Shown: positions 22,311 to 47,439 of the stretch, one piece after another
How positions within the stretch are numbered: the first letter of the stretch is position 1
Layout of the letters: every line of letters starts with the position of its first letter
Origin: Bacteroidales bacterium
GTDB taxonomy: Bacteria; Bacteroidota; Bacteroidia; Bacteroidales; UBA10428
Assembly: GCA_016931575.1 (NCBI GenBank)
Contig: JAFGEO010000125.1
Location: 1-49,287, forward strand
DNA: 49,287 bases
Direction of reading: 5' to 3'
Notes under the pieces: model-generated
Databases searched by the model: none
What the model saw: the letters and a program-made list of their open reading frames with translations, nothing else
What the model was told of the DNA's origin: nothing
Program-made: the position numbers and the translations under genes

Positions 22311-22453
22311 GAACCGGCTCTACCATCTGAAGAAAGCAGATCTCCCGGCCCGGGTTGACCTGCATTGCAGCTTTGTACCTACTTTATTGTCCAGAATACT
22401 TGGCTTCCTGCCGGATTATCGTAAATTGGATCTCCGATGATGAAAAGGAGACC

Positions 22454-23761
22454 ATGTTACGCAAAATCACTCTGATAAAGCCCAATATATACAGCTCAAG
22501 GTCGAAAGGTGCCCTGCCCCCGCTTTTTGCTGCTGCACTTGCTGCACATACTCCTGAAGACATCCATCTTAAACTTTATGATGACCGGATTGAGAGCATT
22601 CCCTTCGATGAACCTACGGATCTGGCCGCCATCCATATTGATACCTTCTCGGCCTTACGTGCCTATCGGATTGCAGGTGAATACAGAAAGCGTGGCGTTA
22701 AGGTTATCGCCGGTGGGTTCCATGCCACCCTGTGCCCGGATGAAACCCTGCAACATGTCGATTCAATCATCACCGGCGATGCTGAAGAACAATGGCCAGC
22801 CCTCCTGGAGGATGCCAGGCATAACCGGCTGAAAACCCGCTATGAGCAGAAGGGATTTATTAAACCGGAGAGAATCAGGTTTAAAAGAGACCTGTTCCTT
22901 GGGAAAAAATACGGTCCGGTCGAGATGGTCCAATGGGGCCGGGGATGCACCTACGACTGCGAATTCTGTTCCGTTAAATCCTTCTATGGGAACGGACAGA
23001 TCTGGCGGCCAATTGAAGATGTAGTTGAGGAAGTTGCCGGTCTGAAAAAGAAAATCGTTTTCTTCGCCGATGATAATCTTTTCCATAACCGTTCCGGGCT
23101 GGTCCGGTTCCTTAAGGAAATTAAACCTCTCAGGATCAAGTGGGTGTGCCAGGTATCGGTTACCATAGCCCAGGACCCTGAACTGCTGGGGCTTATGGCT
23201 GATAGCGGCTGCTTTATCGTGCTTATCGGTATTGAATCTTTTAATGCATCAAACCTTAAACTGATGAATAAATCCTGGAACATCTCCCGCCTGGGAATCC
23301 AGGAGGCGGTGAATATTATCAGGTCATTCGGCATTTTCATTTTCGGGACTTTTATCTTTGGTTATGATCACGATACCCCGGATTCTTTTCAGTATGCTGT
23401 TGAATTTGCCTCCAGGAATAATTTCTTCCTGGCAAATTTCAACCCCCTCTATCCCCTGCCAGGCTCACGCCTCTACCAGAGGTATAAAAAGGATAACCGG
23501 CTTCTCGACAATTGGTGGCTCCGCGAGGATTATTATTATGGCAAATCCATGTTTGAGCCGTTGGGAATGAGCTCCGGGGTCCTTGAAAAAAAAGTGTACG
23601 AAGCCAAATTACAGTTTAACTCCTGGAAGTCAATCCTGAACCGTGCCGGAGGATTGATGAAATCGGGAGTACCCCTGGAAAAACTGGCACTATTCTTCTA
23701 TTCAAATTATATCAATCGCAGCGAAATCATTCATAAACAGGGAAAAACACTGGGTGTATGA
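22454..23761 (+). CDS. B12-binding-type radical SAM protein, copy 1
   Basis: 435 residues. An N-terminal Rossmann-like domain (about 1-130; KITLIKPNIY, YDDRIESIPFDEPTDL, VIAGGFHATLCPDE, GDAEEQW) matches the B12-binding region of class B-type radical SAM enzymes but lacks the DxHxxG cobalt-ligand motif. The radical SAM core has Cys165, Cys169 and Cys172 (GRGCTYDCEFC) for the 4Fe-4S cluster, FFADDNLFHN, IGIESFNASN and FIFGYDHDTPDSF. A C-terminal part ends PLPGSRLYQRYKKDNRLLD. Expected to perform radical methylation or cyclisation on a lipid or natural product; the substrate is unknown. The frame runs up to 22355, but ATG 22454 starts the conserved strand. It overlaps copy 2 by 4 bp. Confidence 0.9.
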   Translation: MLRKITLIKPNIYSSRSKGALPPLFAAALAAHTPEDIHLKLYDDRIESIPFDEPTDLAAIHIDTFSALRAYRIAGEYRKRGVKVIAGGFHATLCPDETLQHVDSIITGDAEEQWPALLEDARHNRLKTRYEQKGFIKPERIRFKRDLFLGKKYGPVEMVQWGRGCTYDCEFCSVKSFYGNGQIWRPIEDVVEEVAGLKKKIVFFADDNLFHNRSGLVRFLKEIKPLRIKWVCQVSVTIAQDPELLGLMADSGCFIVLIGIESFNASNLKLMNKSWNISRLGIQEAVNIIRSFGIFIFGTFIFGYDHDTPDSFQYAVEFASRNNFFLANFNPLYPLPGSRLYQRYKKDNRLLDNWWLREDYYYGKSMFEPLGMSSGVLEKKVYEAKLQFNSWKSILNRAGGLMKSGVPLEKLALFFYSNYINRSEIIHKQGKTLGV

Positions 23762-25116
23762 GAATTACCATGATCAAACCGAATATCGGCCTGCTTCAGC
23801 TGAAAAATGGCAAAGACCTGCCCTTTAATGACAAAGGGAGAATGGAACCCTTGCAGTTAGGCGTTCTCGCAGGACTGACACCGGACCGTCATGAGGTCAC
23901 CCTTATCGATGACCGGATCAATCTCCTGGATTACGATACCGACACGGATCTTGTGGCCGTTACCGTGGAAATCTATATGGCAAAAAGGGCCTACGAAATC
24001 GGTACCGGGTTCAGGAATCGTGGAGTACCTGTTGTATTTGGAGGAATCCATGCTTCCATGATGCCGGAGGAAGCCGGTCAATACGCCGACAGTGTCATCA
24101 TCGGAGATGCAGAGGCTGTGTGGGAGCAAGTGCTCACCGATGCAGAGAATAAGAAATTGAAAAAGGAGTACCACTCGTTTCCTTCTGTGCCTCACCCGGG
24201 TAAAATTGCCCGTCGCAGCATCTATCAGGGCAAAAAATACCTCCCGCTTACCCTCCTCCAGTATGGCCGGGGGTGCCCGTATGCCTGCAGCTTTTGTTGC
24301 ATCAGTGTGTATTTCGATAAGAAACGCTTTCACAGGGATATCGGTGAAGTGCTGGCCGAAATCAAGGCTCAGCCCCGGCGCCTGCTCTTTTTTGTGGATG
24401 ATAATATCATCGGGGACAAGGAGCTGGCAAAGAAGCTTTTCCGTGAACTTATCCCCCTGAAACTAAAATGGGTCGGGCAGGCAAGTCTTGACATGACCCA
24501 GGATCCGGAGCTCATGCGGCTTATGCAACAGAGCGGGTGCATCGGACTGGTCATCGGTTTTGAGTCGTACAGCGAAAAGGGCCTGGCTGAATTCAACAAA
24601 ACACCGAACGACCTTCGTGAATTCGACCGGCAAATCCGGATCATCAGGAACCACCGCATTAACATCTGGGCCGCTTTTGTCCTGGGGCATGATGAAGAAA
24701 CAAAAGAAACCCTTCGGAAAACACTGGAATTTACTATTCGGCAAGGTTTTGCCTTTGTTGCCTTTAACATCCTGATGCCCTACCCTAAAACGGAAATCTA
24801 TGCCAGGCTCCAAAAAGAAAACCGGCTTCTGTACGATGGCAAATGGTGGCTGCACCCTGATTACCGGTTTAATTATGCCGCATTTCAACCTAAGCAAATG
24901 ACGGCTGATGAGCTCACGGATTATGTATTTTACATGCGGAAAAAATTTAACAGCGTCCCGATCATTCTGAAGCGAGTATTCTCCTGGCACAACCTCCGGA
25001 ATATCGGACGGATCCTGTTCCTGCTCCGGATGATGTTCCTTTACCGGAGAGAAACATTCAAAAAACAGGGAATGAAATTCGGTGTAAAATCCCAATTAAC
25101 CAACTCAACAATATGA
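23758..25116 (+). CDS. B12-binding-type radical SAM protein, copy 2
   Basis: 452 residues, the same layout as copy 1. The N-terminal domain has LIDDRINLLDYDTDTDLVAV and VVFGGIHASMMPEEAG. The cluster motif is Cys173, Cys177, Cys180 (GRGCPYACSFC), directly followed by a further Cys181 that the other three copies lack. LLFFVDDNIIGD, IGFESYSEKGL, GHDEETKETL and PYPKTEIYARLQKENRLLYD follow in order. The last 70 residues are basic with hydrophobic patches, suggesting membrane association. Overlaps of 4 bp on both sides (ATGA) point to coupled translation. Role as for copy 1, presumably another step on the same substrate. Confidence 0.9.
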   Translation: MRITMIKPNIGLLQLKNGKDLPFNDKGRMEPLQLGVLAGLTPDRHEVTLIDDRINLLDYDTDTDLVAVTVEIYMAKRAYEIGTGFRNRGVPVVFGGIHASMMPEEAGQYADSVIIGDAEAVWEQVLTDAENKKLKKEYHSFPSVPHPGKIARRSIYQGKKYLPLTLLQYGRGCPYACSFCCISVYFDKKRFHRDIGEVLAEIKAQPRRLLFFVDDNIIGDKELAKKLFRELIPLKLKWVGQASLDMTQDPELMRLMQQSGCIGLVIGFESYSEKGLAEFNKTPNDLREFDRQIRIIRNHRINIWAAFVLGHDEETKETLRKTLEFTIRQGFAFVAFNILMPYPKTEIYARLQKENRLLYDGKWWLHPDYRFNYAAFQPKQMTADELTDYVFYMRKKFNSVPIILKRVFSWHNLRNIGRILFLLRMMFLYRRETFKKQGMKFGVKSQLTNSTI

Positions 25117-26474
25117 TGAAGCTCACCCTCATACATCCGGCCATTGGCAAGATCCCTGGCGAAAAGTACCTGCGGGCATGGCAGATGGAACCCCTTCCTG
25201 TTGCTATGATCGCAGCGTTAATCCCCGATGATTTTACCATCTCTTTCTGGGATGACCGCATGGAAGATATTCCCTGGGACGAGCCTGCCGACCTGGTATT
25301 GATGAGCGTGGAAACCTGCACGGCGAAACGTGCCTACCAGATCGCAACGGAATACCGACGAAGAAATGTACCTGTGATCATGGGCGGCTTTCACGCAACG
25401 CTGTGCCCTGAGGAAGTGATGGAATATGCTGACACTATCGTGGTGGGTGAAGCTGAGACCATCCTGGATGAGGTGTTGGAGGACTTCAGAAAAGGCAGTC
25501 TTAAGAATAGGTACGAAGGCCCCGACTGCCAGTTCGATCGCGAAATCATGCCGGACCGATCCATCTATGCCGGTAAAAATTACCTGAAAATTTCCCTGCT
25601 CGAATCAGGGCGCGGATGCAGATTCCGCTGCGAGTTTTGTTCCATTCATAACTTCTTCCGGGGAAAGCACCATTTCCGACCGGTGGATACCATCATTCAG
25701 GAGGTCCTGGAGCTAAAAAAACTTAAGCGACTGCTCTTTTTTGTGGATGATAACATTGTTGCCGACCAGGAATATGCTTCAGAATTATTTAAAGCCCTTA
25801 TCCCTCATAAACTCAAATGGGTAGGGCAGGCCGATATTACGATAGCAAAAAATCCGGAACTCCTGAAACTTATGTCCAGGAGCGGTTGCCAGGGTGTGCT
25901 GATCGGCTTTGAGAACCTCCGCCCTGAAAACCTGAAGGAGATGAAAAAAGGCCTGTTCCGGGACATCGAAGAACTCGGACAGGCGATAAGAACTATCCAC
26001 AGGAACGGGCTCAGGATTTACGGAACCTTTCTTTTCGGGTACGATCATGATAAGCCGGAGGACTTCGACCTTGTGCTGAAATTTTGCATCCGCAATAAGC
26101 TCTTCATGGTCGGTTTTAACCACCTGACCCCCTTTCCGGGAACACAGCTCTATGAAAGGCTCAAAAAAGAAAAGAAACTCCTCTACCCGGAATGGTGGTT
26201 GGAGGATTCCTATACCTACGGGCAAATACCTTTTCAGTCAACAATTCCCTATGACACCATTGAGGAAGAATGCCGCCGGATACGCTACAGGTTCTATGGC
26301 TTCCGGTCCATGCTGTTCAGGATGACCAACCGGACAAATATCAATTCCTGGCTCATGTTCCCTATGTACCTGACAATTAATACCATGCTTAGAAAAGATA
26401 CCCTGCAGCGAAAAAAGTTTCCGCTTGGGGACCTGGCATTCCGGGGGCAGCTGCTAAAAGTGAAACGCTCATAA
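25113..26474 (+). CDS. B12-binding-type radical SAM protein, copy 3
   Basis: 453 residues; the start has two consecutive ATGs (25113 and 25116), the first overlapping the stop of copy 2. The N-terminal domain has SFWDDRMEDIPWDEPADLVL and VIMGGFHATLCPEEVMEY, and the cluster motif is Cys169, Cys173, Cys176 (GRGCRFRCEFC). RLLFFVDDNIVADQ, IGFENLRPENL, LFGYDHDKPEDF and PFPGTQLYERLKKEKKLLYP are conserved across the four copies. It looks closest to copy 1 in the N-terminal half, suggesting a local duplication. The next gene follows after 7 bp. Confidence 0.9.
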   Translation: MMKLTLIHPAIGKIPGEKYLRAWQMEPLPVAMIAALIPDDFTISFWDDRMEDIPWDEPADLVLMSVETCTAKRAYQIATEYRRRNVPVIMGGFHATLCPEEVMEYADTIVVGEAETILDEVLEDFRKGSLKNRYEGPDCQFDREIMPDRSIYAGKNYLKISLLESGRGCRFRCEFCSIHNFFRGKHHFRPVDTIIQEVLELKKLKRLLFFVDDNIVADQEYASELFKALIPHKLKWVGQADITIAKNPELLKLMSRSGCQGVLIGFENLRPENLKEMKKGLFRDIEELGQAIRTIHRNGLRIYGTFLFGYDHDKPEDFDLVLKFCIRNKLFMVGFNHLTPFPGTQLYERLKKEKKLLYPEWWLEDSYTYGQIPFQSTIPYDTIEEECRRIRYRFYGFRSMLFRMTNRTNINSWLMFPMYLTINTMLRKDTLQRKKFPLGDLAFRGQLLKVKRS

Positions 26475-26481
26475 AAAAAGT

Positions 26482-27591
26482 ATGGATCTGGAAGCGCGCA
26501 TACTGACCCTGGAGGATACGGAAATGCTGAACGATTTCTACATAAAATCAGGAAGCGGGACCAGGATGAATATTAATCTTCACCTCGACCGGTCACCGGA
26601 TTTCCGGGAAGCTGTTTCCATTCATGGTTTTGACAACAAAGTCCTGGCGGTTATTGACCGGGACCGAGGACAAATTGCCACTGCCTGCATCGTCAGCCTG
26701 AGGCATTCCTATATCAGGGGATCTGCCTGCACAACCGGGTATATGTGTGGAATGAAAAGCCGCAGTGAATATGCCGGTACCCTCGCCTTTGCCCGGTTTA
26801 TGAAGCTTTTCAACGAATACTGGCAGGAAAATATGGCTGTATGCTGGATATTTTCCAGCTTCGCTGATAATCAGGTGCTCAATAATCTGATGCACAGAAA
26901 ACATCAGCTTTTCCCGGAAGTAAAGGTCCTCTCCCGGTATGTCACCCACCTGTTCAAACCTGCTGTGATACCCTACGCAGATCCGGATCACGGAACCATT
27001 AGCTGCAGGTATGCCCAACCAGAGGATGCAATAGCTCTGGGGAATTTTCTGAAAATAGCCTATCCGAAAAAAGAATTCAGCCAGGCAGATCATATCGATG
27101 AAATCTGGTCGGGAAAGGGGGAAATGAAAGGCTATAAGCTGACTGACATAGCCCTGGCATTCAGAGACGGTAAAATTGTTGGCACGGCCGGTTTATGGGA
27201 CCAGAGCAGCTACCGGCGCTGGTATGTTGAGGGATATTCTTGCGGGTACAGCCTGGGCAGGCCCCTGATCAACCTGCTTTCCCGGGTACGAAAGATGCCC
27301 GGTTTACCCGCCCCCGGACAGCTTATTCCTTACCGGCTGATCAGCACACTGTTCATTGAGAATGACGATCCGGGGATCTTTCTCAAACTGCTGAACTGTC
27401 TGAAGAAAAAGCTAAATGGCAATGAAATCCTTTCGCTGGGCTTGCCTGAGCATCATCCTTTTGCGAACCTTGTCGAAAGAAAAAGTTTCAGGCTCGAAAA
27501 TAACATCTACCTGGCCTATAAAAATTCAGAGACTGAACGAATGAGAGAAATTCAAGCGAACCATTTATATTTAGAACAGGGAAGCCTATGA
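26482..27591 (+). CDS. GNAT-like acyltransferase (two tandem GNAT-type halves)
   Basis: 369 residues. The N-terminal half begins DLEARILTLEDTEMLNDFYI, the typical opening of GNAT enzymes. A second similar opening appears near residue 172 (ISCRYAQPEDAIALGNFLKI), followed by ALAFRDGKIVGTAGLWDQ, the beta strand pair of a GNAT acyl-CoA fold. Two GNAT-like modules in tandem is therefore the best reading. Acyl-CoA or acyl-ACP transfer to an amine is the expected chemistry, but the donor and acceptor are unknown. It lies inside the radical SAM cluster, 7 bp after copy 3, and overlaps the next gene by 4 bp. Confidence 0.6.
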   Translation: MDLEARILTLEDTEMLNDFYIKSGSGTRMNINLHLDRSPDFREAVSIHGFDNKVLAVIDRDRGQIATACIVSLRHSYIRGSACTTGYMCGMKSRSEYAGTLAFARFMKLFNEYWQENMAVCWIFSSFADNQVLNNLMHRKHQLFPEVKVLSRYVTHLFKPAVIPYADPDHGTISCRYAQPEDAIALGNFLKIAYPKKEFSQADHIDEIWSGKGEMKGYKLTDIALAFRDGKIVGTAGLWDQSSYRRWYVEGYSCGYSLGRPLINLLSRVRKMPGLPAPGQLIPYRLISTLFIENDDPGIFLKLLNCLKKKLNGNEILSLGLPEHHPFANLVERKSFRLENNIYLAYKNSETERMREIQANHLYLEQGSL

Positions 27592-28301
27592 CCAACTTGC
27601 AGAGAGAAATCGTCAGCGTTCACGACCTGACCCCGGAACAAAAGGACAGCATGTACCAGTTAATGCACAACTATTACAGTCATGTGCACAGGGACAGCTT
27701 TGATCATGACCTGTCAGAAAAAAACTGGGTGCTTATGCTCCGGGAGGAGTCCGGACAAGAGATCGCAGGTTTTTCAACCCAGATGCTCTTCCCCTTCAGG
27801 CATCAGGGAAAAGAGCTTCGAATTTTATTTTCCGGAGATACCATCATCCGGAAGGAGCACTGGGGCAGCATGGCCCTGAGCCTCCTTTTCGGAGAGCTAA
27901 TGATCAGGATCCTGAAAGAGTTTGGGGAGCATGAATTATACTGGTTGTTAATCTCCAAGGGACTTCGAACCTATAAATACCTCCCGGCATTCTTCCTCGA
28001 ATATTATCCCTGCAGTAAATGTCCCACACCCCCCGAAATTCAGGAACTGATGCATGCCCTGGGTATCTTTAAGTTTGCGGATTCCTACTCCCCGGAAAAG
28101 GGGATTATCCTGGCAGACCGGGAAGGGCAATACCTGAAACCCGAGTACCATGCAGATGCAAAACCTTCCAAACCCCATGAGGTGTTCTTCTACAAAGCGA
28201 ATCCCGGCTATATCCGGGGCGATGAACTCCTGTGCCTGACCCGTTTGTCCCTTGACAACATCAATCCTTTCATTAAACGACAAATCAGTAAATACCAATG
28301 A
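27588..28301 (+). CDS. GNAT-fold-like protein of unknown substrate
   Basis: 237 residues with no firm family assignment. LMLREESGQEIAGFSTQMLF, then LRILFSGDTIIRKEHWGSM and LSLLFGELMIRILKE follow the order of GNAT strands and the CoA-contacting turn (RKEHWGSMA), so a divergent acyltransferase is plausible. A Cys-x-x-Cys (CSKC) lies near residue 143-146 and could bind metal. Both ends overlap neighbours by 4 bp (ATGA), so it is an integral part of the cluster. The alternative is a structural or adaptor protein without catalysis. Confidence 0.45.
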   Translation: MTNLQREIVSVHDLTPEQKDSMYQLMHNYYSHVHRDSFDHDLSEKNWVLMLREESGQEIAGFSTQMLFPFRHQGKELRILFSGDTIIRKEHWGSMALSLLFGELMIRILKEFGEHELYWLLISKGLRTYKYLPAFFLEYYPCSKCPTPPEIQELMHALGIFKFADSYSPEKGIILADREGQYLKPEYHADAKPSKPHEVFFYKANPGYIRGDELLCLTRLSLDNINPFIKRQISKYQ

Positions 28302-29935
28302 GTACCCTTCCAGCCATAGCAAACCGGCTTTTCATGGTGCTCAACCGCAGGGCATACAAGAAGCTGACAAAATCCTGCCGGCACCCGGAACAGGTACAGG
28401 AGCGATTGCTCAGATCTATTCTCAAAAAGAACCGTCACAGCCGGTTTGGTCTGCTTCATAACTTTCGGAACATCAGGAACTATGCCGACTACCACCACGA
28501 AGTTCCCCTGAGCAGTTACGATGATTACCAGGATGCCATTTACCAGTCGGCCCAGGGCGAAAAGCATCTTCTCTGCCATGATCCCATTCATTACTTTGCC
28601 ATCTCCAGCGGGACCACTGCCGCATCTAAACTCATTCCCTTCACTGCTTCCCTGAAATCAGAATTCAACCGGGCGATCAATCCATGGATCTATAACCTCC
28701 TCGATACCTATAAAGGTATCAGGGGCGGAAAACAATTCTGGATCATCACCCCCTCAACCCTTCCTGACCACCTGCCTGAAAGTGTTATCCCTATTGGTTT
28801 TGAGAAAGACCGTGATTATTTTGGAAAGCTTCAGCGGTTTCTGATCGGGACGGTTATGCTGCTGCCGGAAGAGATCAAAAATATCCGTAGCAGCGAAAAT
28901 TATTTTTACCTCATTTCCTGGTTTCTGCTAAAGGAGAAAAACCTGCGTCTCATCTCCATCTGGAATCCCAGCCTGCTTTTATGGATCATGCACTACCTGA
29001 ACACCAACTATGCAGCATTGTGCGCAGATATTGCAGGCGGAAAAATCAGGCTCCCGAAACCCGATGAACCTGGCGACCGGAAACTGGCCGACAACTATGC
29101 CCGGAGGGATGTCAAACGGGGGGAATTCCTCATGTCGGTTGGCTCTGCATCACCCGAAAACATTTCACTGATCTGGCCAAGGTTAAAATTAATCAGTAGT
29201 TGGGCCGATGCCTGGGCAGGGGAACTTATCCCTGATCTGAAATCACTTTTCCCGGGCATAAGCATTCAGGGTAAAGGACTGCTTATGACCGAAGGAGTGA
29301 TCAGTATTCCACATACCAGACTTCCCGATCCCTTATTGACAGTGAACTGCCAGTTCTATGAGTTCCGGCATCCGGGGGATAATCAGACTTACCTGGCTCA
29401 TGAGCTGAATGACGGGGATGAATATGAAGTAATTATTACCACTTCCGGAGGGTTCTACCGGTATAAAACCGATGATATCATCCGGGTCAAAGGCTTTTTC
29501 AGGAATACGCCGATGATTGAGTTTATCGGTAAGCAGAATGTGGTCTCCGACCTCTGCGGGGAGAAGCTCCATGAAAATTTCATTGCTAATATCCTGCACG
29601 AACTGTCGCATAAATACCTGAATGGCGAACGGTATATGTTCCTGGCTCCGGCGAAAAGAGAAAACCGATGGTCCTATACCCTGTACCTGGAAGTTCACCC
29701 TGACGAGCTGACTCCATATGAAAATGAACTGTGTAAAGAACTTGACATGCTCCTCAAAAAAAATTATCACTATAAACATTGCAGAAGGATGCAGCAGCTG
29801 GATTCCCCGCGGATCCACTTCCTGAATGAAGAAAGTTGCCTGAAAAGTCAAAAGCTGCGGCTGGGCGAACGACCATCTGGCACAAAAAAGCTAAACTACC
29901 TCGAAACAGCACTTATCAATCCGGACACCTTATAG
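28298..29935 (+). CDS. GH3-family acyl-adenylating amide synthetase
   Basis: 545 residues. Members of this ANL-superfamily branch activate a carboxylic acid with ATP and join it to an amino group, often of an amino acid. The ATP motif SSGTTAASK is at about 103-111. GLLMTEGVISIP matches the second nucleotide motif, and FYRYKTDDIIRVKGFF followed by MIEFIGKQN is the third. Usual bacterial GH3 proteins are 500-560 residues, so it is full length. The start overlaps the GNAT-like gene by 4 bp, and a fourth radical SAM gene begins 9 bp after the stop. The context suggests that it makes an amide or activates an acid that the radical SAM enzymes modify; this is inference. Confidence 0.88.
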   Translation: MSTLPAIANRLFMVLNRRAYKKLTKSCRHPEQVQERLLRSILKKNRHSRFGLLHNFRNIRNYADYHHEVPLSSYDDYQDAIYQSAQGEKHLLCHDPIHYFAISSGTTAASKLIPFTASLKSEFNRAINPWIYNLLDTYKGIRGGKQFWIITPSTLPDHLPESVIPIGFEKDRDYFGKLQRFLIGTVMLLPEEIKNIRSSENYFYLISWFLLKEKNLRLISIWNPSLLLWIMHYLNTNYAALCADIAGGKIRLPKPDEPGDRKLADNYARRDVKRGEFLMSVGSASPENISLIWPRLKLISSWADAWAGELIPDLKSLFPGISIQGKGLLMTEGVISIPHTRLPDPLLTVNCQFYEFRHPGDNQTYLAHELNDGDEYEVIITTSGGFYRYKTDDIIRVKGFFRNTPMIEFIGKQNVVSDLCGEKLHENFIANILHELSHKYLNGERYMFLAPAKRENRWSYTLYLEVHPDELTPYENELCKELDMLLKKNYHYKHCRRMQQLDSPRIHFLNEESCLKSQKLRLGERPSGTKKLNYLETALINPDTL

Positions 29936-29944
29936 AACAAAGCT

Positions 29945-31258
29945 ATGACAAAGAAAATGCTCATCATACTGCCTGAAGCCAGGATACACAAGCTCTCCCT
30001 GGGTCTCTTCAGGATGTCATTCAGGGAAGCTCCCTTAACCGCAACAACACTGGCAGCCATGGTGCCGGAGGAACATAACTTTGAAATTACCTGCTGCGAT
30101 GAAAATGTTCAGAAGCTTCCCCTGCACAGGAATTTTGACCTGGTAGCTATCAGCATCCTTACCGGAACAGCCGATCGGGGTTACGAACTTGCAGACTATT
30201 TCAGGTCAAAGGGATCCACGGTCGTTATCGGCGGTGTCCATGCCACACTGATGCCGGAAGAAGCCTCCCTGCATGCCGATGCGCTGGTTTCAGGATTTAG
30301 TGAACACACCTGGCCGCAACTCCTCAGGGATTACTCGGAAGGTAAGCTGAAGGCCCTGTATAAGGATATGGTTCAGCATTATAAAGAGAGTCCCGTTCCG
30401 AGGCGGGACCTCCAGAAAAACCGCCGGTATGGGGTTCCCAATGTCGTCAGTGCGACGCGTGGCTGTAAAAATAATTGCGATTTCTGTTCGGTGCCTGCCG
30501 CAGGCTTTGGCTGGCAAACACGCCCTGTGGGACAGGTGATCGATGAAATCAGGCAGATCCGCTCCGGACGCATTGTCTTCAATGACGTGAGTATGGGAGA
30601 AGATATGGAGTATTTCAAAAGCCTGCTGCGGGCACTGATACCGCTGAAAAAGCGCTGGGGGGGACTGGTTTCCACTAAGGTATTTAAGGACCCTGAGATT
30701 ATCGACCTGCTGGCAAAAAGCGGATGTGTCTACTTACTGATCGGCTTTGAATCCCTGAACGATTACTCCCTGAGCTCCATTAAAAAAGGTTTTAACAAGT
30801 ACGACGACTACCTGAACATCATTAAGGCACTGCACTCCATCGGGGTAGTGATCATGGGCTGCTTCATTTTCGGTTTTGATGAAGATGACCGGGACATTTT
30901 CAAAAAGACAGTTGATTTCGTAAATGCAAACGAACTGGATATTCCGCGCTACGCCCTCTACACCCCCTATCCGGGAACGGACTTGTTCCACCGCTTTGAA
31001 AAAGAAGGACGGCTCCTGCACAAACACTGGCACCACTACGACACCCAGCATGTAGTATTTAAACCTAAACTCCTTAGCCCTGAAGAACTGGATGAAGGGT
31101 TTAAATGGGCATACCGGCAAACATTTACCGTGTCCTCCTCCCTTAAGAGAACCATCCATACCGGAAAAAATTTCTTTATCACCTTTGGTGGTAACCTCGC
31201 TTATAAAATCTACATCCACCGCCTGATGAAAGAGAAAAACCGCATCCTGTTTGAATGA
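29945..31258 (+). CDS. B12-binding-type radical SAM protein, copy 4
   Basis: 437 residues. The N-terminal domain differs somewhat from copies 1-3 (CCDENVQKLPLHRNFDLVAI, then VVIGGVHATLMPEEASLHA). Its cluster motif is Cys174, Cys178, Cys181 (TRGCKNNCDFC). The core shows IVFNDVSMGEDMEY in place of the FFVDDN segment of the other copies, then LIGFESLNDYSLSSIKKGFN, FIFGFDEDDRDIF and YPGTDLFHRFEKEGRLL. It is the most divergent of the four and so may act on a different position or substrate. It ends the run; the next gene is a separate lipoprotein 87 bp away. Confidence 0.9.
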   Translation: MTKKMLIILPEARIHKLSLGLFRMSFREAPLTATTLAAMVPEEHNFEITCCDENVQKLPLHRNFDLVAISILTGTADRGYELADYFRSKGSTVVIGGVHATLMPEEASLHADALVSGFSEHTWPQLLRDYSEGKLKALYKDMVQHYKESPVPRRDLQKNRRYGVPNVVSATRGCKNNCDFCSVPAAGFGWQTRPVGQVIDEIRQIRSGRIVFNDVSMGEDMEYFKSLLRALIPLKKRWGGLVSTKVFKDPEIIDLLAKSGCVYLLIGFESLNDYSLSSIKKGFNKYDDYLNIIKALHSIGVVIMGCFIFGFDEDDRDIFKKTVDFVNANELDIPRYALYTPYPGTDLFHRFEKEGRLLHKHWHHYDTQHVVFKPKLLSPEELDEGFKWAYRQTFTVSSSLKRTIHTGKNFFITFGGNLAYKIYIHRLMKEKNRILFE

Positions 31259-32058: not shown

Positions 32059-32334
32059 ATGAACAAAGACCTTGACAAAATGAGCGCTGAAGAATTGAGC
32101 TTACTCTTCCCAATTCTGCTTTGCTCTCCCGATCCCGAGTGGAAACATCGCTACCTTACAATGGAAAGACAGATCAGGGATGCTTTTTCTGCGGGACAAA
32201 TTGTTGCCCTGGATCATATCGGAAGTACTGCCATTCCCGGTTTAATCAGTAAGCCCACCATCGACATCCTCCTCCAGGTGGCTAAACACACTCCTGATCA
32301 GGACATTATCAGAAATCTGAAAAACCTCCGTTAA
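32059..32334 (+). pseudogene. Truncated GrpB-family protein
   Basis: 91 residues matching the N-terminal half of the GrpB family (nucleotidyltransferase-like fold, normally about 160-180 residues). DHIGSTAIPGLISKPTIDIL is the family signature. The frame stops at 32334 just where the next conserved segment would begin. The 150 bp that follow show no GrpB C-terminal motif in any forward frame, so the 3' half appears lost. A short functional domain cannot be excluded. Confidence 0.7.
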
Positions 32335-32484: not shown

Positions 32485-33996
32485 ATGATCAAGCAGACCA
32501 TGACAGAGAAGAAGAAAGTAGTCGTAATCGGTTCAGGAATCGGAGGTTTATCCACGGCAATCTACCTGGCGCGAAATGGATACGAGGTAAGTGTGTTTGA
32601 AAAGAACAGCTTTATCGGGGGACGTTGCAGCCACCTGGTACAGGAGGAGCACCGTTTCGACCTGGGGGCCACCCTCCTGATGATCCCTGATATTTACGAC
32701 CGGGCCTTTAAAGCCATGGGTAAGAATATGTTCGAAGAGATGCAACTTAAGCGTATCGATCCGGTCTATAGGGTTGTCTATGCCAATGGAAAGGAACTGC
32801 GCTTTACCAGGGATCTGGAAAAGATGAAAGCCCAGCTTGAGGATATCGAACCAGGCAGTGCAGAAAAATTCCTGAGGTTCATGGATGAAAGTATCCAAAA
32901 TTACCGGATCTCTATGAAGGCGGTTATTGAGAAAAATTACTATTCGGCATACGATTTTTTTAATCCGAAGACCTTATCCATCCTGCTGAAGGTAAAGGCA
33001 CTCCGGAACCATTACAAACTGGCGTCACAGCATTTTAAAAGTGACATCCTGCGCAGTGCGTTTACATTTCAGAACATCTATGTCGGTCAGAATCCTTTCC
33101 AGGCCTCGGCCGTTTTTGCTATGCTCCCTTTCCTTGAAATTACCGAAGGTGTTTATTTCCCTGTAGGAGGGATGTATGAAGTGATCCGTACCATGCTCGA
33201 TACCTGCAAAGAGTTGAATATCCCCGTACATACCAACGCAGCCGTAAAGGAGATCCCTGTAACAAAAAACCGGGTGAAAGGCATTAAGCTGAAGGACGGC
33301 AGTTTTCATGGAGCCGACATTGTGGTATCCAACGCCGACCTTCCCTATGTATACCAGGAATTGTTACCCAAAGAAGACATTCCCTCCAGGATGAAGCGAC
33401 TGAGGTACACCTGTTCAGCGGTGGTCTTCCACTGGGGCATGGATAAATCGTACCCCGAATTACTGCAACACAATGTATTTGTGGCTGAGCAATACAAAAA
33501 AAGCATCGATGCGGTTTTTAACGGGGATGTCTTCCACTCCGATTTCAGCTTTTACCTGCATTCACCTGTGAAGAATGATCCGACAGCCGCCCCGGCGGGC
33601 CAGGATTCGATCTCTGTGATTGTTCCCATTTCCAACATGAAATCTGCCCTGAACTCAAATTGGCAGGATATCCGTGAACATGTCCGGGAGATCGTATTCA
33701 GGAGACTGGAAATGGAAGGACTGACAGATTTCCGGAAACATATCAAATTCGAGAAATGCTTTACACAAAACGCGTGGAAAAGTATATTTAATTTATCCGA
33801 GGGTGGCACCTTTGGAAGCCTGAACCATGATATTTTTCAGATGGGGTATATGCGACCGGGAAATCAGCATAAAAAATTCAGAAACCTCTATTTTGTAGGA
33901 GGAAGTACACACCCCGGAAACGGAGTACCCATGGCATTGATTTCCGCGCGGCTGACAACAGAAAAGATTATCAAAACCAACAAACCAAAAACCTGA
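32485..33996 (+). CDS. crtI: Phytoene desaturase (CrtI-type)
   Basis: 503 residues, normal for CrtI. The FAD-binding start VVVIGSGIGGLSTAIYLARN with a following acidic strand end (VSVFEKN) and FIGGRC are clear. The C-terminal second FAD signature reads LYFVGGSTHPGNGVPMALIS. It desaturates a C40 (or C30) carotene precursor at the membrane. The substrate depends on the partner synthase encoded directly downstream; the stop and the next ATG overlap (TGATG). No geranylgeranyl-PP synthase, cyclase or ketolase gene is in the window, so only the core of a carotenoid pathway is visible. ATG 32485 is used; the internal ATG at 32500 is an alternative. Confidence 0.95.
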   Translation: MIKQTMTEKKKVVVIGSGIGGLSTAIYLARNGYEVSVFEKNSFIGGRCSHLVQEEHRFDLGATLLMIPDIYDRAFKAMGKNMFEEMQLKRIDPVYRVVYANGKELRFTRDLEKMKAQLEDIEPGSAEKFLRFMDESIQNYRISMKAVIEKNYYSAYDFFNPKTLSILLKVKALRNHYKLASQHFKSDILRSAFTFQNIYVGQNPFQASAVFAMLPFLEITEGVYFPVGGMYEVIRTMLDTCKELNIPVHTNAAVKEIPVTKNRVKGIKLKDGSFHGADIVVSNADLPYVYQELLPKEDIPSRMKRLRYTCSAVVFHWGMDKSYPELLQHNVFVAEQYKKSIDAVFNGDVFHSDFSFYLHSPVKNDPTAAPAGQDSISVIVPISNMKSALNSNWQDIREHVREIVFRRLEMEGLTDFRKHIKFEKCFTQNAWKSIFNLSEGGTFGSLNHDIFQMGYMRPGNQHKKFRNLYFVGGSTHPGNGVPMALISARLTTEKIIKTNKPKT

Positions 33997-34952
33997 TGAA
34001 AACAAAAAGCGAAGCACAAAGTCTGCTGGAGCATATCGATTTTGAAAGCATTACCAAGCACCCGAATATCCTGATTGCAGCGAAATTCTGGGATGAAGAA
34101 CGCTATGAAGCTGCAAAGACCTGCTATAGATTCATGCGGGCAATTGATGACCTTATCGATGATAAAAAAGCAGCGCTGAGGACCTTCAGCGCTGAAGAAA
34201 AACAACAACTGACCCAACAGGTAAACAGCTGGATCAACAGCATCGACGAACTCGACAGTGAAGATCCTTTTATCACCGGGCTGGTGGATACCATCAGACG
34301 CTTCAAGATCCCCCTGAAGCTTTTTCATAATTTTGCCCGTTCCATGCTGTATGATATCAACCATAACGGATTCAAGACGTTTCACGATTTTATAACCTAT
34401 GCTGAAGGCGCCTCGGTTGCCCCTGCTTCGGTTTTTATTCACCTCTGTTGTCTGAAACAGAAAAACGGCGAATATTACCCTCCCGCCTTTGATGTTACCG
34501 ATGTTGCCCGTCCCTGTGCTATCTTCAGCTATATCGTGCATATTATCAGGGATTTTCAGAAGGACCAGTTTGAGAACCTCAACTATTTTTCGGATGACAT
34601 TCTGACAAAATATGGCCTTACTGCTCCTGATCTTCAGGAAATTGCCCGCAGCAGCAACATTCCTCTGGGTTTCAGGGATGTGATCAGGGAGTACCTGGAC
34701 CAGGCCCGCATCTATTCGATACAAACCCTGATGCAAATCGACAACCTCGTACCCAGGCTTGACTCCCGGTACCTGCTGAGCCTAAAGATCATCTATGGAC
34801 TTTACCTTCAGGTATACAACCGCATCGATGCCGAGCATGGCAGGTTCACCATGGATGAGCTAAATCCAGGTATGCAGGAGGTTAAGCAATTCATCGCGGA
34901 TATTATTAATGAAGAATATTGTGAAAACAGCCAGACGGGTAATCCTGTGTGA
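33996..34952 (+). CDS. crtB: Phytoene/squalene synthase family protein
   Basis: 318 residues. It condenses two prenyl diphosphates to phytoene (or a C30 analogue). The first Asp-rich motif is in MRAIDDLIDDKKA, and the second in HIIRDFQKDQFENLNYFSDDIL, both placed as in trans-prenyl head-to-head synthases. The start overlaps crtI by one base. Its second motif, RDFQKDQ, suggests a plain CrtB-type enzyme, but which chain length it uses cannot be settled. It is followed by 235 bp with no gene. Confidence 0.93.
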   Translation: MKTKSEAQSLLEHIDFESITKHPNILIAAKFWDEERYEAAKTCYRFMRAIDDLIDDKKAALRTFSAEEKQQLTQQVNSWINSIDELDSEDPFITGLVDTIRRFKIPLKLFHNFARSMLYDINHNGFKTFHDFITYAEGASVAPASVFIHLCCLKQKNGEYYPPAFDVTDVARPCAIFSYIVHIIRDFQKDQFENLNYFSDDILTKYGLTAPDLQEIARSSNIPLGFRDVIREYLDQARIYSIQTLMQIDNLVPRLDSRYLLSLKIIYGLYLQVYNRIDAEHGRFTMDELNPGMQEVKQFIADIINEEYCENSQTGNPV

Positions 34953-43346: not shown

Positions 43347-44903
43347 ATGAAATCCTTCATTGCTGCGCTGTTGATCCTAGGGTATTCACTGTTGTCTTCG
43401 GCATGCAATACCCGGCCAAAACCTGTTGTTTCGCCAGATAAAAAGGCCCCGCAGCAGGTAGCTTCCGCCAATGACCAGGATCGTCAACCTGCTGTTGCCG
43501 GAAGCTTCTACCCGGCTTCGGAGGAGGTACTCCGGAAAGACCTTGAAGCTTTATTTGCATCCGTAGAAAAAGTTACCAGTGAACATGTCAGGGCGCTGAT
43601 TGTCCCGCATGCCGGCTATGTATACTCCGGAAAAACTGCCGCCGCCGGTTTTAAACAGCTCGACAGGGACTGCCGCTTTGAACGTGTTTTTCTCATCGGC
43701 TCGAGCCACAGGATGTATTTCCAGGGCGCTTCCGTCTATACTGACGGGGATTTCATTACACCGCTTGGCCGGGTGAAGGTCGACCCCCTGGCAAAAGAAC
43801 TGGCCTCTGCCTATTCAGTATTCACTGATAACCCGGCACCCCACCTGCAGGAACATAGCCTGGAGGTCGAGCTTCCCTTCCTGCAGTACTGGCTAAATAA
43901 TGAGTTTACGCTGGTTCCCATCGTGTTGGGTGGCGACAACCTGAAGGACTTCAGGGAGATCGCTGAAATTTTAGAACCCTGGTTCAACGAAAAAAACCTC
44001 TTTGTTATCAGCAGCGACTTTTCGCACTACCCCGGGTATGAAGATGCCCGGACCTGCGATGCCGAGATGGCAAATGCCATTCTGAAGAATTCAGCGCAGG
44101 ATTTTCTTAAAGCAAAGACAAGGGTAGAAAACCGGCAGGTAAAGGGCTTGGTAACAGCTATTTGCGGTTGGGCTTCCGTGTACACCCTTCTGAATGTTAC
44201 GGAAGACAATGCATCGCTCAACTTCCAGCACCTGCTCTACGAAAATTCAGGAGATTCACCACAGGGCACCACCGACCGGGTGGTAGGCTATCATGCTATT
44301 GCCATAACTTCGGTAGCTGAAAAGAAATCAGAACCGGAGTTCACACTTACCCGGGAAGAAAAGATCAAACTGCTGAAGATTGCCCGGCAAACTCTTGCAG
44401 ACTATATTCCGGGGAAACTAAAATTCACCCCCGAAGAGAAAGACCTGACACCCTTACTTAAAACAGGGGCCGGCGCCTTTGTTACACTGGAAAAGAATGG
44501 GCAGCTCCGTGGATGCATCGGGAATTTCCAGGCTTCGCAAGCCCTGTATCTGACGGTGCGCGATATGGCCATTGCTGCCGCTACTCAAGACCACCGTTTC
44601 CCCGCTGTTGAGGCCTCTGAAATCCCTAAACTCGACATTGAGATCTCCGTGCTCACCCCGATGCGGAAGATAAATTCCATCGACGAAATTGAACTTGGAA
44701 AACACGGGATCTACATCCGTAAAGGAAGCCAGACGGGAACCTTCCTTCCCCAGGTGGCAACCGAAACCGGCTGGACCCTGGAAGAGTTTCTTGGACACTG
44801 CGCCCGCGATAAGGCAGGTATTGGCTGGGATGGCTGGAAAACTGCCGACATCTATGTCTATGAAGCCCTTGTTTTCAGCGAACATGAACCCGATCTGAAA
44901 TAG
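43347..44903 (+). CDS. AmmeMemoRadiSam system proteins B and A fused (Memo-AMMECR1), lipoprotein signal
   Basis: 518 residues. The N-terminal signal ends in LLSSAC (Cys20), a probable lipobox. The Memo domain (about 46-325) has PHAGYVYSGK, IGSSHRMYF, EHSLEVELPFLQ, ISSDFSHYPG and the Cys of TAICGWASV, which together correspond to the metal and catalytic ligands of Memo. The AMMECR1 domain (about 337-515) has the LRGCIGNFQ motif and DHRFPAVEASEIPKLDIEIS. Memo and AMMECR1 are often separate genes; this is the fused form. The chemistry of the system is not known to me. The next gene starts 2 bp later, then the radical SAM component. Confidence 0.93.
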   Translation: MKSFIAALLILGYSLLSSACNTRPKPVVSPDKKAPQQVASANDQDRQPAVAGSFYPASEEVLRKDLEALFASVEKVTSEHVRALIVPHAGYVYSGKTAAAGFKQLDRDCRFERVFLIGSSHRMYFQGASVYTDGDFITPLGRVKVDPLAKELASAYSVFTDNPAPHLQEHSLEVELPFLQYWLNNEFTLVPIVLGGDNLKDFREIAEILEPWFNEKNLFVISSDFSHYPGYEDARTCDAEMANAILKNSAQDFLKAKTRVENRQVKGLVTAICGWASVYTLLNVTEDNASLNFQHLLYENSGDSPQGTTDRVVGYHAIAITSVAEKKSEPEFTLTREEKIKLLKIARQTLADYIPGKLKFTPEEKDLTPLLKTGAGAFVTLEKNGQLRGCIGNFQASQALYLTVRDMAIAAATQDHRFPAVEASEIPKLDIEISVLTPMRKINSIDEIELGKHGIYIRKGSQTGTFLPQVATETGWTLEEFLGHCARDKAGIGWDGWKTADIYVYEALVFSEHEPDLK

Positions 44904-44905
44904 GC

Positions 44906-47353
44906 ATGCCATCCCCCTACCTCCTCATACCCATCGGCCTGTTGGTACTGTCATGTTACCTGCTGAGTCATGTTTTTGTCCGGTTCGACATCCTATCCAA
45001 AAGGAACCACCGCAGGTTCTGGAACATTGTCCTGCTGCTTACCTTTCTGGTAGCGGGAAGCCTCGGCCTCCTGCTTGCCATCCAGATCAACTATAAACTC
45101 GAATGGACTCTTATCAATAACTTCCTGACCTGGCACGTGAATTTCGGCATTGCCATGACAATCGTCGCCATTATCCATTTTCTGTGGCACCTCAACTACT
45201 ACCTGAATCTCTTCAAACGTGGTCCGGTACCTGCCGGAGAAAAAGCCGAAGAACAACACGTACAGCCAAAACCGGATCCCCGGCAAAAGCTGCTCATTCT
45301 TTTTACCGGTTTTTATTCCCCGGTGGTCCAGGTCCTGATGATCCGGGAACTTACCACCCAGTTTCAATCAAACGAAATCATGATGACCTGGACACTGGGA
45401 TTGTGGATGATCCTGACCGGAACAGGATCCCTGCTGGGAAGAAAATTAAAACTATACCGGATCAATCCTGTAACACAGCGCAGGCTTGTCCTCTGGATCT
45501 CGATTGCCCCTGTGGTGATGGTTATGGTATTAAGTCTGCTTAAAGATATCCTCTTCCCCCCCGGCATCCTGATCAGTCCGCTTGAATACCTGCTCCTGAT
45601 CAGCTACATGCTTGCGCCTGTCTGCATTTTTTCCGGTGTATTGTTCACCTGCTTTGTCCGCTCGGAAACCTACTCCTTCTCCGGGGTATACCTCCTCGAA
45701 GCTGCGGGCAGCATCGCAGGAGGGATCCTGGTAAGTTTCATTCTGATCCGGTGGTTCAGCGTGTTGCAGTCGCTCCTGCTCATGATCGTGCTTGCTTCCC
45801 TCTTCCTCCGGTTCTATTCCGGAAAGCGGATATACATACTAACCGGTACCCTTACTCTTGCTCTGGCGGTCTTCCTTCCTGCATCACCTTTCGAAAAGAA
45901 CCTGAAATCCGTCGCCTTCGGGGATCAGAAGGTAGTGGAAAACGAAGAAAGCCGGCTGGGGAACATCACCGTTACGGAAAACGGGGGCGAATATAACTAT
46001 TTCCTGAACGGCTCTCTCCTTTTCAATACCGGGAACTTCGTCATGGCTGAAGAATTTGTGCATTATGCCATGCTGCAGCACGATGATCCGAAGAAGGTAT
46101 TGCTGGTCTCCGGCGGACTGGCCGGTATGGTAAACGAGATCCTGAAATACCCCGATATCAGGCTGATCGATTATGTAGAGCTGAATACGGAGCTGCTGGA
46201 GCTCTCGGAAAAAAGGAATCCCCTGCCAGACACATCCATTCTGCACGTTCATCCCTCGGATATCCTTGATTTTCTGCGAAAAACCGGTACCCGCTACGAC
46301 ATTGCCATCCTGGCAGTGCCCGACCCTTCATCCATTCAGCTAAACCGCTACTATTCTGTAGAATTTATCAGGATGCTGAAAGGCTACCTCGGCGAAAATG
46401 CAGTAATCATCTATGGCTTATCCCCAACAGGAAACTACATGAGCCGCTGGCAAAAGCTGAAGCTTTCCCTGGTCTGTAACAGCCTGAAAAAGCATTTCAG
46501 GAATGTCATCCTGATACCCGGAGAAAAGGATTATTTTGTAGCTTCCGACCAGGAAGTGAGCACTGCCATTGCTGGGCTGAGCCGCGATTATGAGCTGGAA
46601 AATCTGTATGTGAACCCCGACTATTTCGACGATGAGGACCTGCGCATGCGCAGCCTTTTTTTGAGCAGTCAGCTCGACAAGGAGGCAGGAGTGAACAGTC
46701 AGCATAAAGCCCTTCCTGCCTTCTGCTCCACCCTCAAATACCTGTCGAAGACAGGTTCCGGTCTGCCATACCTGCTCATCCCCCTCATCCTGCTGCCTCT
46801 GGTTCTTCTCCTGCAGCAGCGGGGGACCAAAGGCATGTACCTGGCGGGAATGAGCGGGGCATCTGTTGAGATTATGCTGATCTTCATGGTGCAGATCGCT
46901 TTCGGATATATCTATCAGGTGCTGGGAATACTGATCGCTATTTTCATGGGCGGACTGGTTCTCGGAACCTGGCTGACGCGGTATATTCCGGTTTCAGGGA
47001 GAAACTACCGCCTGGCATTTCTGGCCATGGTCGCCTTCCTGCTGCTGTTCTTCCTGTTCATGTTTACGCCCTATATCACTTTCCCCAGGGCGATCCTGTG
47101 GAGTATTTTCAGCCTTTCCATGTTGGCCCCTTCAGCCATTACCGGCTATATTTTTGTGGCTGCCACGCAACTATTCAGGGAAGAAATCACGGCCGCAGCT
47201 CCCAGAATGTATGCTGCCGACCTGATCGGAGCCGCCCTGGGCATCACCTCCATGACCCTGGTCCTGATCCCCCTGATCGGATTGACATACAGCTGCCTCA
47301 TTCTGATTGCGCTGAATGCCATCCCGCTTTTCGCCGGAAAAAAAATTATCTGA
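44906..47353 (+). CDS. Polytopic spermidine-synthase-like protein with possible haem-binding N-terminal helices
   Basis: 815 residues. Residues 1-105 form three helices with His22, His77, His91 and His95 (WHVNFG, IIHFLWHLNYY), like DUF4405 or cytochrome b-type bundles. More helices follow (about 155-330), then a Rossmann methyltransferase-like domain (about 395-500; VLLVSGGLAG, VELNTELLEL, AVPDPSSIQLNRYYS), and a last block of helices (about 625-815). The domain resembles spermidine synthase but has GGLAG where the enzyme has GGGDG, and Ala in place of the catalytic Asp, so polyamine synthesis is unlikely. It is sandwiched between the other two AmmeMemoRadiSam genes, so it is probably part of that system. 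Confidence 0.82.
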   Translation: MPSPYLLIPIGLLVLSCYLLSHVFVRFDILSKRNHRRFWNIVLLLTFLVAGSLGLLLAIQINYKLEWTLINNFLTWHVNFGIAMTIVAIIHFLWHLNYYLNLFKRGPVPAGEKAEEQHVQPKPDPRQKLLILFTGFYSPVVQVLMIRELTTQFQSNEIMMTWTLGLWMILTGTGSLLGRKLKLYRINPVTQRRLVLWISIAPVVMVMVLSLLKDILFPPGILISPLEYLLLISYMLAPVCIFSGVLFTCFVRSETYSFSGVYLLEAAGSIAGGILVSFILIRWFSVLQSLLLMIVLASLFLRFYSGKRIYILTGTLTLALAVFLPASPFEKNLKSVAFGDQKVVENEESRLGNITVTENGGEYNYFLNGSLLFNTGNFVMAEEFVHYAMLQHDDPKKVLLVSGGLAGMVNEILKYPDIRLIDYVELNTELLELSEKRNPLPDTSILHVHPSDILDFLRKTGTRYDIAILAVPDPSSIQLNRYYSVEFIRMLKGYLGENAVIIYGLSPTGNYMSRWQKLKLSLVCNSLKKHFRNVILIPGEKDYFVASDQEVSTAIAGLSRDYELENLYVNPDYFDDEDLRMRSLFLSSQLDKEAGVNSQHKALPAFCSTLKYLSKTGSGLPYLLIPLILLPLVLLLQQRGTKGMYLAGMSGASVEIMLIFMVQIAFGYIYQVLGILIAIFMGGLVLGTWLTRYIPVSGRNYRLAFLAMVAFLLLFFLFMFTPYITFPRAILWSIFSLSMLAPSAITGYIFVAATQLFREEITAAAPRMYAADLIGAALGITSMTLVLIPLIGLTYSCLILIALNAIPLFAGKKII

Positions 47354-47439
47354 CAGGAAGAGGTTTTTCTTCCTCATTTCCCCGGCATTTTTATGTAAAA
47401 GCCCGTAACTTTATCCATAGGAATCCTGAAATTTCCGGT

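Follow-up and report, generated by a model that had tools for sequence, protein, structure and literature searches.

A conserved operon of B12-type radical SAM, GNAT and GH3 genes in a Bacteroidales genome and its possible role in acyl amide biosynthesis

Closest described systems

B12-type radical S-adenosylmethionine (SAM) enzymes carry out methylation, cyclisation or contraction reactions at unactivated carbons, and radical SAM C-methylases occur in thienamycin and aminoglycoside pathways; GNATs, for their part, pass acyl groups to amines or hydroxyls. The subject of this work is an operon of seven genes in which both kinds of protein are encoded together with an acyl-acid amido synthetase-like enzyme of the GH3 family; it lies in a 49,287-nucleotide stretch of DNA from a Bacteroidales bacterium (assembly GCA_016931575.1, contig JAFGEO010000125.1), referred to at its full length as the window. 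According to PMC12493201, GH3 enzymes couple an acyl acid to an amine via an acyl-adenylate, as described for the plant enzymes, and the bacterial GH3 enzyme OlsH makes N-acyl-ornithine. The OlsH/OlsI ornithine-lipid pathway of planctomycetes described there resembles the operon in having a bacterial GH3 enzyme, of the kind that couples acyl acid and amine, whose gene lies next to those of acyl-transfer and modifying enzymes. It differs in that OlsI is an alpha/beta hydrolase, of which there is none among the seven window genes, and the term 'radical SAM' occurs zero times in the main text of that paper; moreover, the window GH3 protein reaches only 61.7 bits against the OlsH model NF052613, whose cut-off is 620, and an OlsH-type cluster was discarded on this score.

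The best NCBIfam neighbours of the four radical SAM proteins of the operon (RS1 to RS4) are HpnJ, HpnR, BchE, PhpK and the ladderane-associated TIGR04072, which likewise combine a B12-like N-terminal domain with a radical SAM domain; however, the matches listed for RS1 to RS4 with HpnJ, BchE, PhpK and TIGR04072 lie far below the curated cut-offs (RS4 against HpnJ, 100.4 for a cut-off of 577.6), and a ladderane-type cluster was rejected with 61–66 bits against TIGR04072, for a cut-off of 360. A further relevant enzyme is the tetraether lipid synthase Tes (PDB 7tol), bacterial homologues of which are known and have been proposed, without proof, for the synthesis of branched glycerol dialkyl glycerol tetraethers, as stated in PMC8941075. 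Tes-like genes form part of the cluster in four loci of other phyla (L100, L101, L138 and L139), whereas the window operon has none. Among the matches listed, no NCBIfam cut-off is reached by any of the seven proteins and no curated equivalog fits, in keeping with the original prediction, which did not recognise the set as a described pathway; no description of it was found in the open PubMed Central literature, as judged by titles and abstract openings. The gene set therefore appears undescribed, its parts being of known kinds and its type that of a radical SAM biosynthetic cluster. It is best explained, with a confidence that is evenly divided for and against, as making an acyl amide with a radically modified carbon skeleton, most probably a lipid that stays in the membrane or is exported.

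The operon and its recurrence in other genomes

The seven reading frames are all open, lie on the + strand and span positions 22454–31258 of the window. RS1 (22454..23761) and RS2 (23758..25116) encode accessory radical SAM proteins, probably of the B12 type; they are followed by the conserved core, composed of RS3 (25113..26474), also for a B12-type radical SAM protein, GNAT1 (26482..27591), for a tandem GNAT-fold protein, GNAT2 (27588..28301), for a single GNAT-fold protein without Pfam match that serves as marker of the system, GH3 (28298..29935), for the acyl-acid amido synthetase-like enzyme, and RS4 (29945..31258), for the fourth B12-type radical SAM protein. The bases at 23758, 25113, 27588 and 28298 are ATGA at four gene overlaps, and the successive spacings from RS1 to RS4 are −4, −4, +7, −4, −4 and +9; the layout given in the original prediction, with seven genes in one direction, the same coordinates and four 4-bp ATGA overlaps, is thus borne out in the frames and bases. 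The longest frame of RS1 begins at an upstream TTG at 22355, and the next gene, 87 bases past RS4, encodes a small protein without Pfam or NCBIfam match. A foreign base composition was ruled out, since the guanine-plus-cytosine content of the operon windows (0.46–0.49) falls inside the range of the flanks (0.42–0.51) and gives no sign of recent transfer.

The core RS3-GNAT1-GNAT2-GH3-RS4 recurs in other Bacteroidota, Saprospiraceae included, in Omnitrophota and in Desulfobacterota, often in the same order. The window order, RS1-RS2-RS3-GNAT1-GNAT2-GH3-RS4, is found complete in L095 behind a further radical SAM gene, RS4b (RS4b-RS1-RS2-RS3-GNAT1-GNAT2-GH3-RS4); L103 reads RS4(cut)-RS4b-RS1-RS2-RS3-GNAT1-GNAT2-GH3, and L099, from Saprospiraceae, RS4b-RS3-GNAT1-GNAT2-GH3-RS4. 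Another Saprospiraceae genome, G801, carries RS4b-RS1-RS2-RS3-GNAT1-GNAT2 up to a contig end (L134) and a second contig that begins GH3-RS4 (L098). The order is RS4-RS3-GNAT1-GNAT2-GH3 both in L100, from Omnitrophota, and in L144, and GNAT2-GH3-RS4-RS3-GNAT1 in L101, from Desulfobacterales. The Omnitrophota search added L138, L139 and L140, each with RS3, GNAT1, GNAT2 and a gene like RS4 or RS4b (identities of 46 and 44%, respectively, in L138 and of 42 and 42% in L139; 58% to RS4 in L140); L139 and L140 also have an RS2-like gene, and GH3 lies a few genes further on in L138 and L139, while the L140 contig ends soon past GNAT2. Four loci cut by contig ends (L096, L097, L102 and L133) are consistent with this order. 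Since the set recurs in other phyla, the grouping is more than chance, and the proposal that the genes form one functional unit is sustained by the conservation of set and order in several distant genomes; the same gene order, which was to be sought elsewhere, was found in them. Nor are the GNAT and GH3 genes absent from homologous loci, which the original prediction had named as grounds for abandoning the idea: 10 of the 11 RS4 loci are in genomes with GNAT2 and 9 of the 11 in genomes with a cluster-type GH3, the exceptions being L094 (genome G070) and L104 (genome G806). In L104, RS4 stands at the contig start and the other members are not on the locus, in a genome that was not searched for GH3.

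The set is real, patchy in distribution and found in rare members of at least three phyla. With the single GNAT2 protein as query, only the window's own genome was found, both among 23 genomes of the family and among 395 of the phylum. A seven-row GNAT2 profile (rows from G000, the window's own genome, and from G671, G799, G800, G802, G803 and G804) matched 4 of 393 genomes of the window's order (G000, G070, G575 and G671), 4 of 285 in the phylum to which the Omnitrophota genome G803 belongs and, in that of the Desulfobacterales genome G804, 4 of 336, one of which, a weak match in G1178 (L146; 33.2 bits, E 7.5e-8) without cluster neighbours in 12 kb, was left out of the count. The genome collection, scanned for RS4, yielded 11 loci from 79 candidate stretches. 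Three of these loci (L094, L097 and L103) are again the genomes G070, G575 and G671; the scan also pointed to eight genomes, seven of them with GNAT2, and none was found in the eighth, G806. This brings the genomes with GNAT2 to 16, of which the seven that supplied profile rows match by construction and the other nine are independent finds. All four genomes of the order with GNAT2 have an RS4-clade protein in the tree described below; since no more than four candidates per genome were scored when radical SAM relatives were sought, further RS4 genes may exist in the order. Viral contigs gave no match in two scans and a single match, of 27%, with the radical SAM alignment. GNAT2 and GH3 stand on one locus in 13 of the 16 genomes; in two of the remaining three (G801 and G967) a contig end falls between them, and the third, G070, gave no GH3. 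Over eight genomes, RS3, RS4, GNAT2 and GH3 have correlated pairwise distances, with r of 0.59–0.83 when shared ancestry is ignored. That a five-gene core stays together in members of three phyla, although most of the genomes searched lack it, suggests that it has a defined product.

Radical SAM proteins

All four radical SAM proteins have the Radical_SAM domain PF04055 above cut-off and a CX3CX2C motif, in agreement with their earlier assignment as radical SAM enzymes. The B12-binding domain PF02310 (cut-off 32.1 bits) scores above cut-off in RS3 (40.7) and RS4 (34.3) and below it in RS1 (23.9) and RS2 (29.1); the DxHxxG motif is in none of them. RS1, RS2 and RS4 are 39, 37 and 29% identical to RS3, respectively. 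RS4 is the most conserved of all members (53–72% identity over 11 loci), followed by RS3 (44–60%). The best solved relative of both RS3 and RS4 is the apramycin-biosynthesis enzyme 6fd2.

RS1, RS2, RS3, RS4 and RS4b are separate orthologous clades. In a tree of 70 rows, which was built without characterised enzymes and to which L138–L140, L144 and L145 are external, RS1, RS2 and RS3 share one clade (support 100/100), within which are resolved the clades of RS1 (100/98, five rows, joined by the outlier L083 at 90/92), RS2 (99/97, five rows) and RS3 (99/98, eight rows); the RS4 clade (100/100, twelve rows) is sister to the RS4b clade (100/98, five rows), the pair being supported at 100/98. The sister of the RS2 clade consists of relatives from L079–L082 (joint support 100/99), which occur without GNAT1, GNAT2 or GH3. 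Orthologues of RS1 are present in L095, L103, L134 and L075, and those of RS2 in L095, L103, L134 and L074. RS3 and RS4 extend to Omnitrophota and Desulfobacterales, and RS1 is assigned in Bacteroidota only; RS1, RS2 and RS4b are additions to the core, and their presence varies among loci. In the window's own genome, RS4b lies apart from the operon, next to an MMPL-type transporter gene (G000:C161, L113 2787-6573).

Other groups of radical SAM genes were also encountered. The loci L087–L091, of family f21 of the order, contain two or three tandem B12-type radical SAM genes, which together with a pair from L092 form a clade of their own in the tree, and no GNAT1, GNAT2 or GH3 match was found near the tandem genes of L087–L091. 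An uncharacterised cluster in L079 (3238-13365), in part common to L080, has four radical SAM genes, among them the RS2 relative, alongside genes for an MFS transporter, a pyridoxal phosphate (PLP) decarboxylase and two proteins with weak similarity to GNAT/FemAB.

GH3 and GNAT proteins

The assignment of the sixth gene to the GH3 synthetases is confirmed by PF03321 (167 bits, cut-off 23.6), PF23571 and PF23572, all above cut-off. Nucleotide motifs I and III are recognised as SSGTTAASK at residue 103 and GFYRYKTDD at residue 385, and S104, G105, K111, G385, R388, Y389 and D393 are invariant in nine GH3 sequences; in the motif II region, only T331 and E332 of TEG are invariant. PMC12493201 gives motif I as SSGT..K, motif III as G.YRY..D and motif II, in JAR1, as YGSSE. 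Among the matches of the GH3 profile are plant acyl-acid amido synthetases, at an E value of about 1e-38, and identity among the homologues is 31–44%. Ten cluster GH3 proteins form one clade (100/100) apart from 18 others, including the genome's own housekeeping copy, in a tree for which the program warned of long branches. GH3 alone was rejected as a marker of the system, as 124 of 149 genomes of the order match the window protein, mostly through short matches to GH3 proteins of about 510 residues; no other cluster gene was found in eight regions around the stronger GH3 matches (L034–L041). In one of these regions (L034, 13386-17488, genome G053), a distant GH3 gene adjoins a gene with BLAST similarity to the MMPL-type transporter of L113.

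Sequence searches gave only sub-threshold GNAT matches for GNAT1 (Pfam) and none for GNAT2; AlphaFold2 models of both were built from seven-row alignments, with mean pLDDT values of 81.7 for GNAT1 and 90.4 for GNAT2. Compared with the PDB by Foldseek, they have 333 and 357 matches, respectively, at E ≤ 0.001, and the best 50 of each are GNAT-fold, so that the modelled structures place both proteins in the GNAT superfamily fold and bear out their earlier description as GNAT-like. The matches listed for GNAT1 include the tandem GNATs Eis2, N-myristoyltransferase (NMT) and MAB_4324, which share its fold and differ from it in sequence (7–14% identity in the best 50 of 333 matches), as well as a glucosamine N-acetyltransferase and a tandem GNAT of the clavulanic-acid pathway; GNAT2 matches single-domain acetyltransferases, with aminoglycoside 2'-N-acetyltransferases as the best matches and NatD also present, and parts of NMT. 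GNAT2 is 36–54% identical among homologues, and GNAT1, with 22–29% identity to six homologues, is fast evolving and the least conserved member.

Possible function and alternative explanations

What is seen directly is the genes, their folds and families, the radical SAM and GH3 motifs, the conserved set and order and the orthologous clades; from these we infer the substrates, the order of steps and the lipid nature of the product. Taken together, GH3, GNAT and B12-type radical SAM proteins suggest an amide whose carbon skeleton has been altered by radical chemistry. The original prediction of a stepwise radical modification of an acyl chain or amide lipid is thus supported in part, the acyl chain or lipid as substrate and the stepwise action being suppositions. 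In the proposed route, ordinary fatty acid synthesis would supply a fatty-acyl-like chain. RS3 and RS4, which are present in nearly all fuller loci, with RS1, RS2 and RS4b as optional partners, would use radicals generated from a [4Fe-4S] cluster and SAM, together with cobalamin, to add methyl groups, close rings or form couplings at unactivated carbons, either those of the acyl chain or those of its partner. GH3 would adenylate a free carboxylic acid with ATP and pass it to an amine, and GNAT1 and GNAT2 would each move an acyl group from acyl-coenzyme A or acyl carrier protein to an amine or hydroxyl.

The idea of a lipid gains indirect support from the neighbouring genes in other phyla and from exporters of the MMPL/RND type. 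Tes-like radical SAM genes accompany the four loci of Omnitrophota and Desulfobacterales named above. Past the core, L100 and L101 both have two more radical SAM genes and a gene for a small membrane protein (identities between the loci of 48, 53 and 47%), and the best PDB match of both extra radical SAM proteins of L100 is 7tol (E 7.8e-10 and 1.7e-18); the three Tes-like proteins scanned with the Tes NCBIfam model score 88–111 bits, all below its cut-off of 450, that of L101 as a fragment and the L100 protein with the E value of 1.7e-18 at 88 bits. The membrane protein of L100 has a match to CDP-archaeol synthase below cut-off (18.6 for a cut-off of 22) and weaker relatives in L138, L139 and L140. 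Also found are an M28 peptidase in L138 and L139, a PLP enzyme in L138 and an extra GNAT in L139. Genes of the CDP-alcohol phosphatidyltransferase type, CdsA-like genes and PlsC-like genes lie downstream in L101 and L144. MMPL/RND-type exporters adjoin RS4 in L104 and L095, RS4b of the window genome in L113 and the RS2 relative in L080; the exporters of L095 and L104 are 43 and 32% identical to that of L080, and that of L113 is distant.

Several observations weigh against a lipid amide made by one conserved operon. The extra genes of other phyla need not belong to the same pathway; there is no Tes-like gene in L144 or in the part of L140 on the contig, and no Tes-like, phospholipid-synthesis or MMPL exporter gene among the window genes scanned around the operon. 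The CDP-alcohol phosphatidyltransferase match of L101 is just under cut-off (21.8 for a cut-off of 22) and has no BLAST match to that of L144. The exporters of L104 and L095 reach the Pfam cut-off in no family or in one borderline family, their link to MMPL being through L080, and in L095 the exporter gene lies on the opposite strand. No lipid enzyme is among the named solved relatives of RS3 and RS4 (the apramycin enzyme, CysS, a tryptophan methyltransferase, RimO and MiaB). As to the unity of the set, the distances of GNAT1 correlate with those of the other members with r of only 0.08–0.47 (seven genomes, shared ancestry ignored). In G070, RS1, RS2, RS4 and GNAT2 are on separate contigs among unrelated genes; RS3 was not found there, GNAT1 was not sought and no GH3 was found with two queries, the second without positive control. 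L145 has GNAT1-GNAT2-GH3, and neither the RS nor the Tes-like queries gave a match there over 20 kb.

Part of this evidence agrees with a soluble specialised metabolite, such as a small antibiotic, a signal or a metal-binding amide, in which the RS proteins would be C-methylases and the GNATs N-acetyltransferases and no lipid would be made, a possibility that we regard as appreciable, if clearly on the unlikely side. It would account for the aminoglycoside 2'-N-acetyltransferases at the head of the GNAT2 matches, for the glucosamine N-acetyltransferase, Eis2 and the clavulanic-acid-pathway protein among those of GNAT1, for 6fd2 as best solved relative of RS3 and RS4, and for a patchy distribution, which is typical of specialised metabolites. 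Nevertheless, the GNAT fold is a generic one, and N-myristoyltransferases too are among these matches; no regulator or resistance gene is found among the seven, and in L101 and L144 genes of phospholipid type come after the core. In another explanation, the operon would alter a cofactor, a hopanoid-like or carotenoid lipid or a protein that already exists, and no new amide would be assembled from free parts; the RS proteins score best against the PhpK, HpnJ and BchE models, far below cut-off, and CrtI-like and squalene/phytoene-synthase-like genes lie 1.2 kb downstream in the window. This explanation is quite improbable, however, as no such carotenoid gene was found among the neighbours scanned in other loci, which were part of all neighbours, and GH3 with two GNATs argues for the formation of amide or ester bonds.

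The alternative that GNAT1-GNAT2-GH3 is the real unit, with radical SAM genes that are attached to it loosely and encode tailoring enzymes differing from host to host, is rather unlikely. It rests on L145, which keeps the trio without radical SAM homologues nearby, and on the coming and going of RS1, RS2 and RS4b among loci; on the other hand, GH3 and GNAT1 are less well conserved than RS3 and RS4, which accompany the trio in the fuller loci except L145, and G070 retains RS1, RS2, RS4 and GNAT2 while GH3 was not found there. Should the preferred reading, a radically modified amide lipid, be true, the operon would specify a new lipid class, which might furnish biomarkers, and several new reactions of radical SAM enzymes at unactivated carbon; its seven genes are few enough for direct expression. 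A bolder and improbable extension of that reading is an unrecognised class of amide-linked membrane lipids whose tails would be cyclised or coupled by B12-type radical SAM enzymes, the Tes-like extension in some Omnitrophota and Desulfobacterota leading to tail-joined, possibly membrane-spanning forms.

Other observations

In L145 (7113-15548), the genes GH3-GNAT2-GNAT1 stand with those of two proteins of about 455 residues that belong to no known family and of a member of the GDSL lipase family. An apparent GNAT2-GH3 fusion in L144 was dismissed, the long stop-to-stop frame being an artefact of a GC-rich stretch and GNAT2 lying in another frame; a large protein thought to be common to L130 and L131 was likewise dropped, as the two have no similarity.

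Downstream of the operon, the window contains a 91-residue frame at 32059-32334 that may be truncated and begins like what we take to be a GrpB-family protein. The CrtI-like desaturase and the squalene/phytoene-synthase-like gene mentioned above occupy 32485-34952 and overlap by one base. Further on, at 43347-48564, genes for a two-domain Memo-AMMECR1 protein, a protein with a spermidine-synthase domain and a radical SAM protein follow in a row, resembling the AMMECR1/Memo/radical SAM trio known from annotation.

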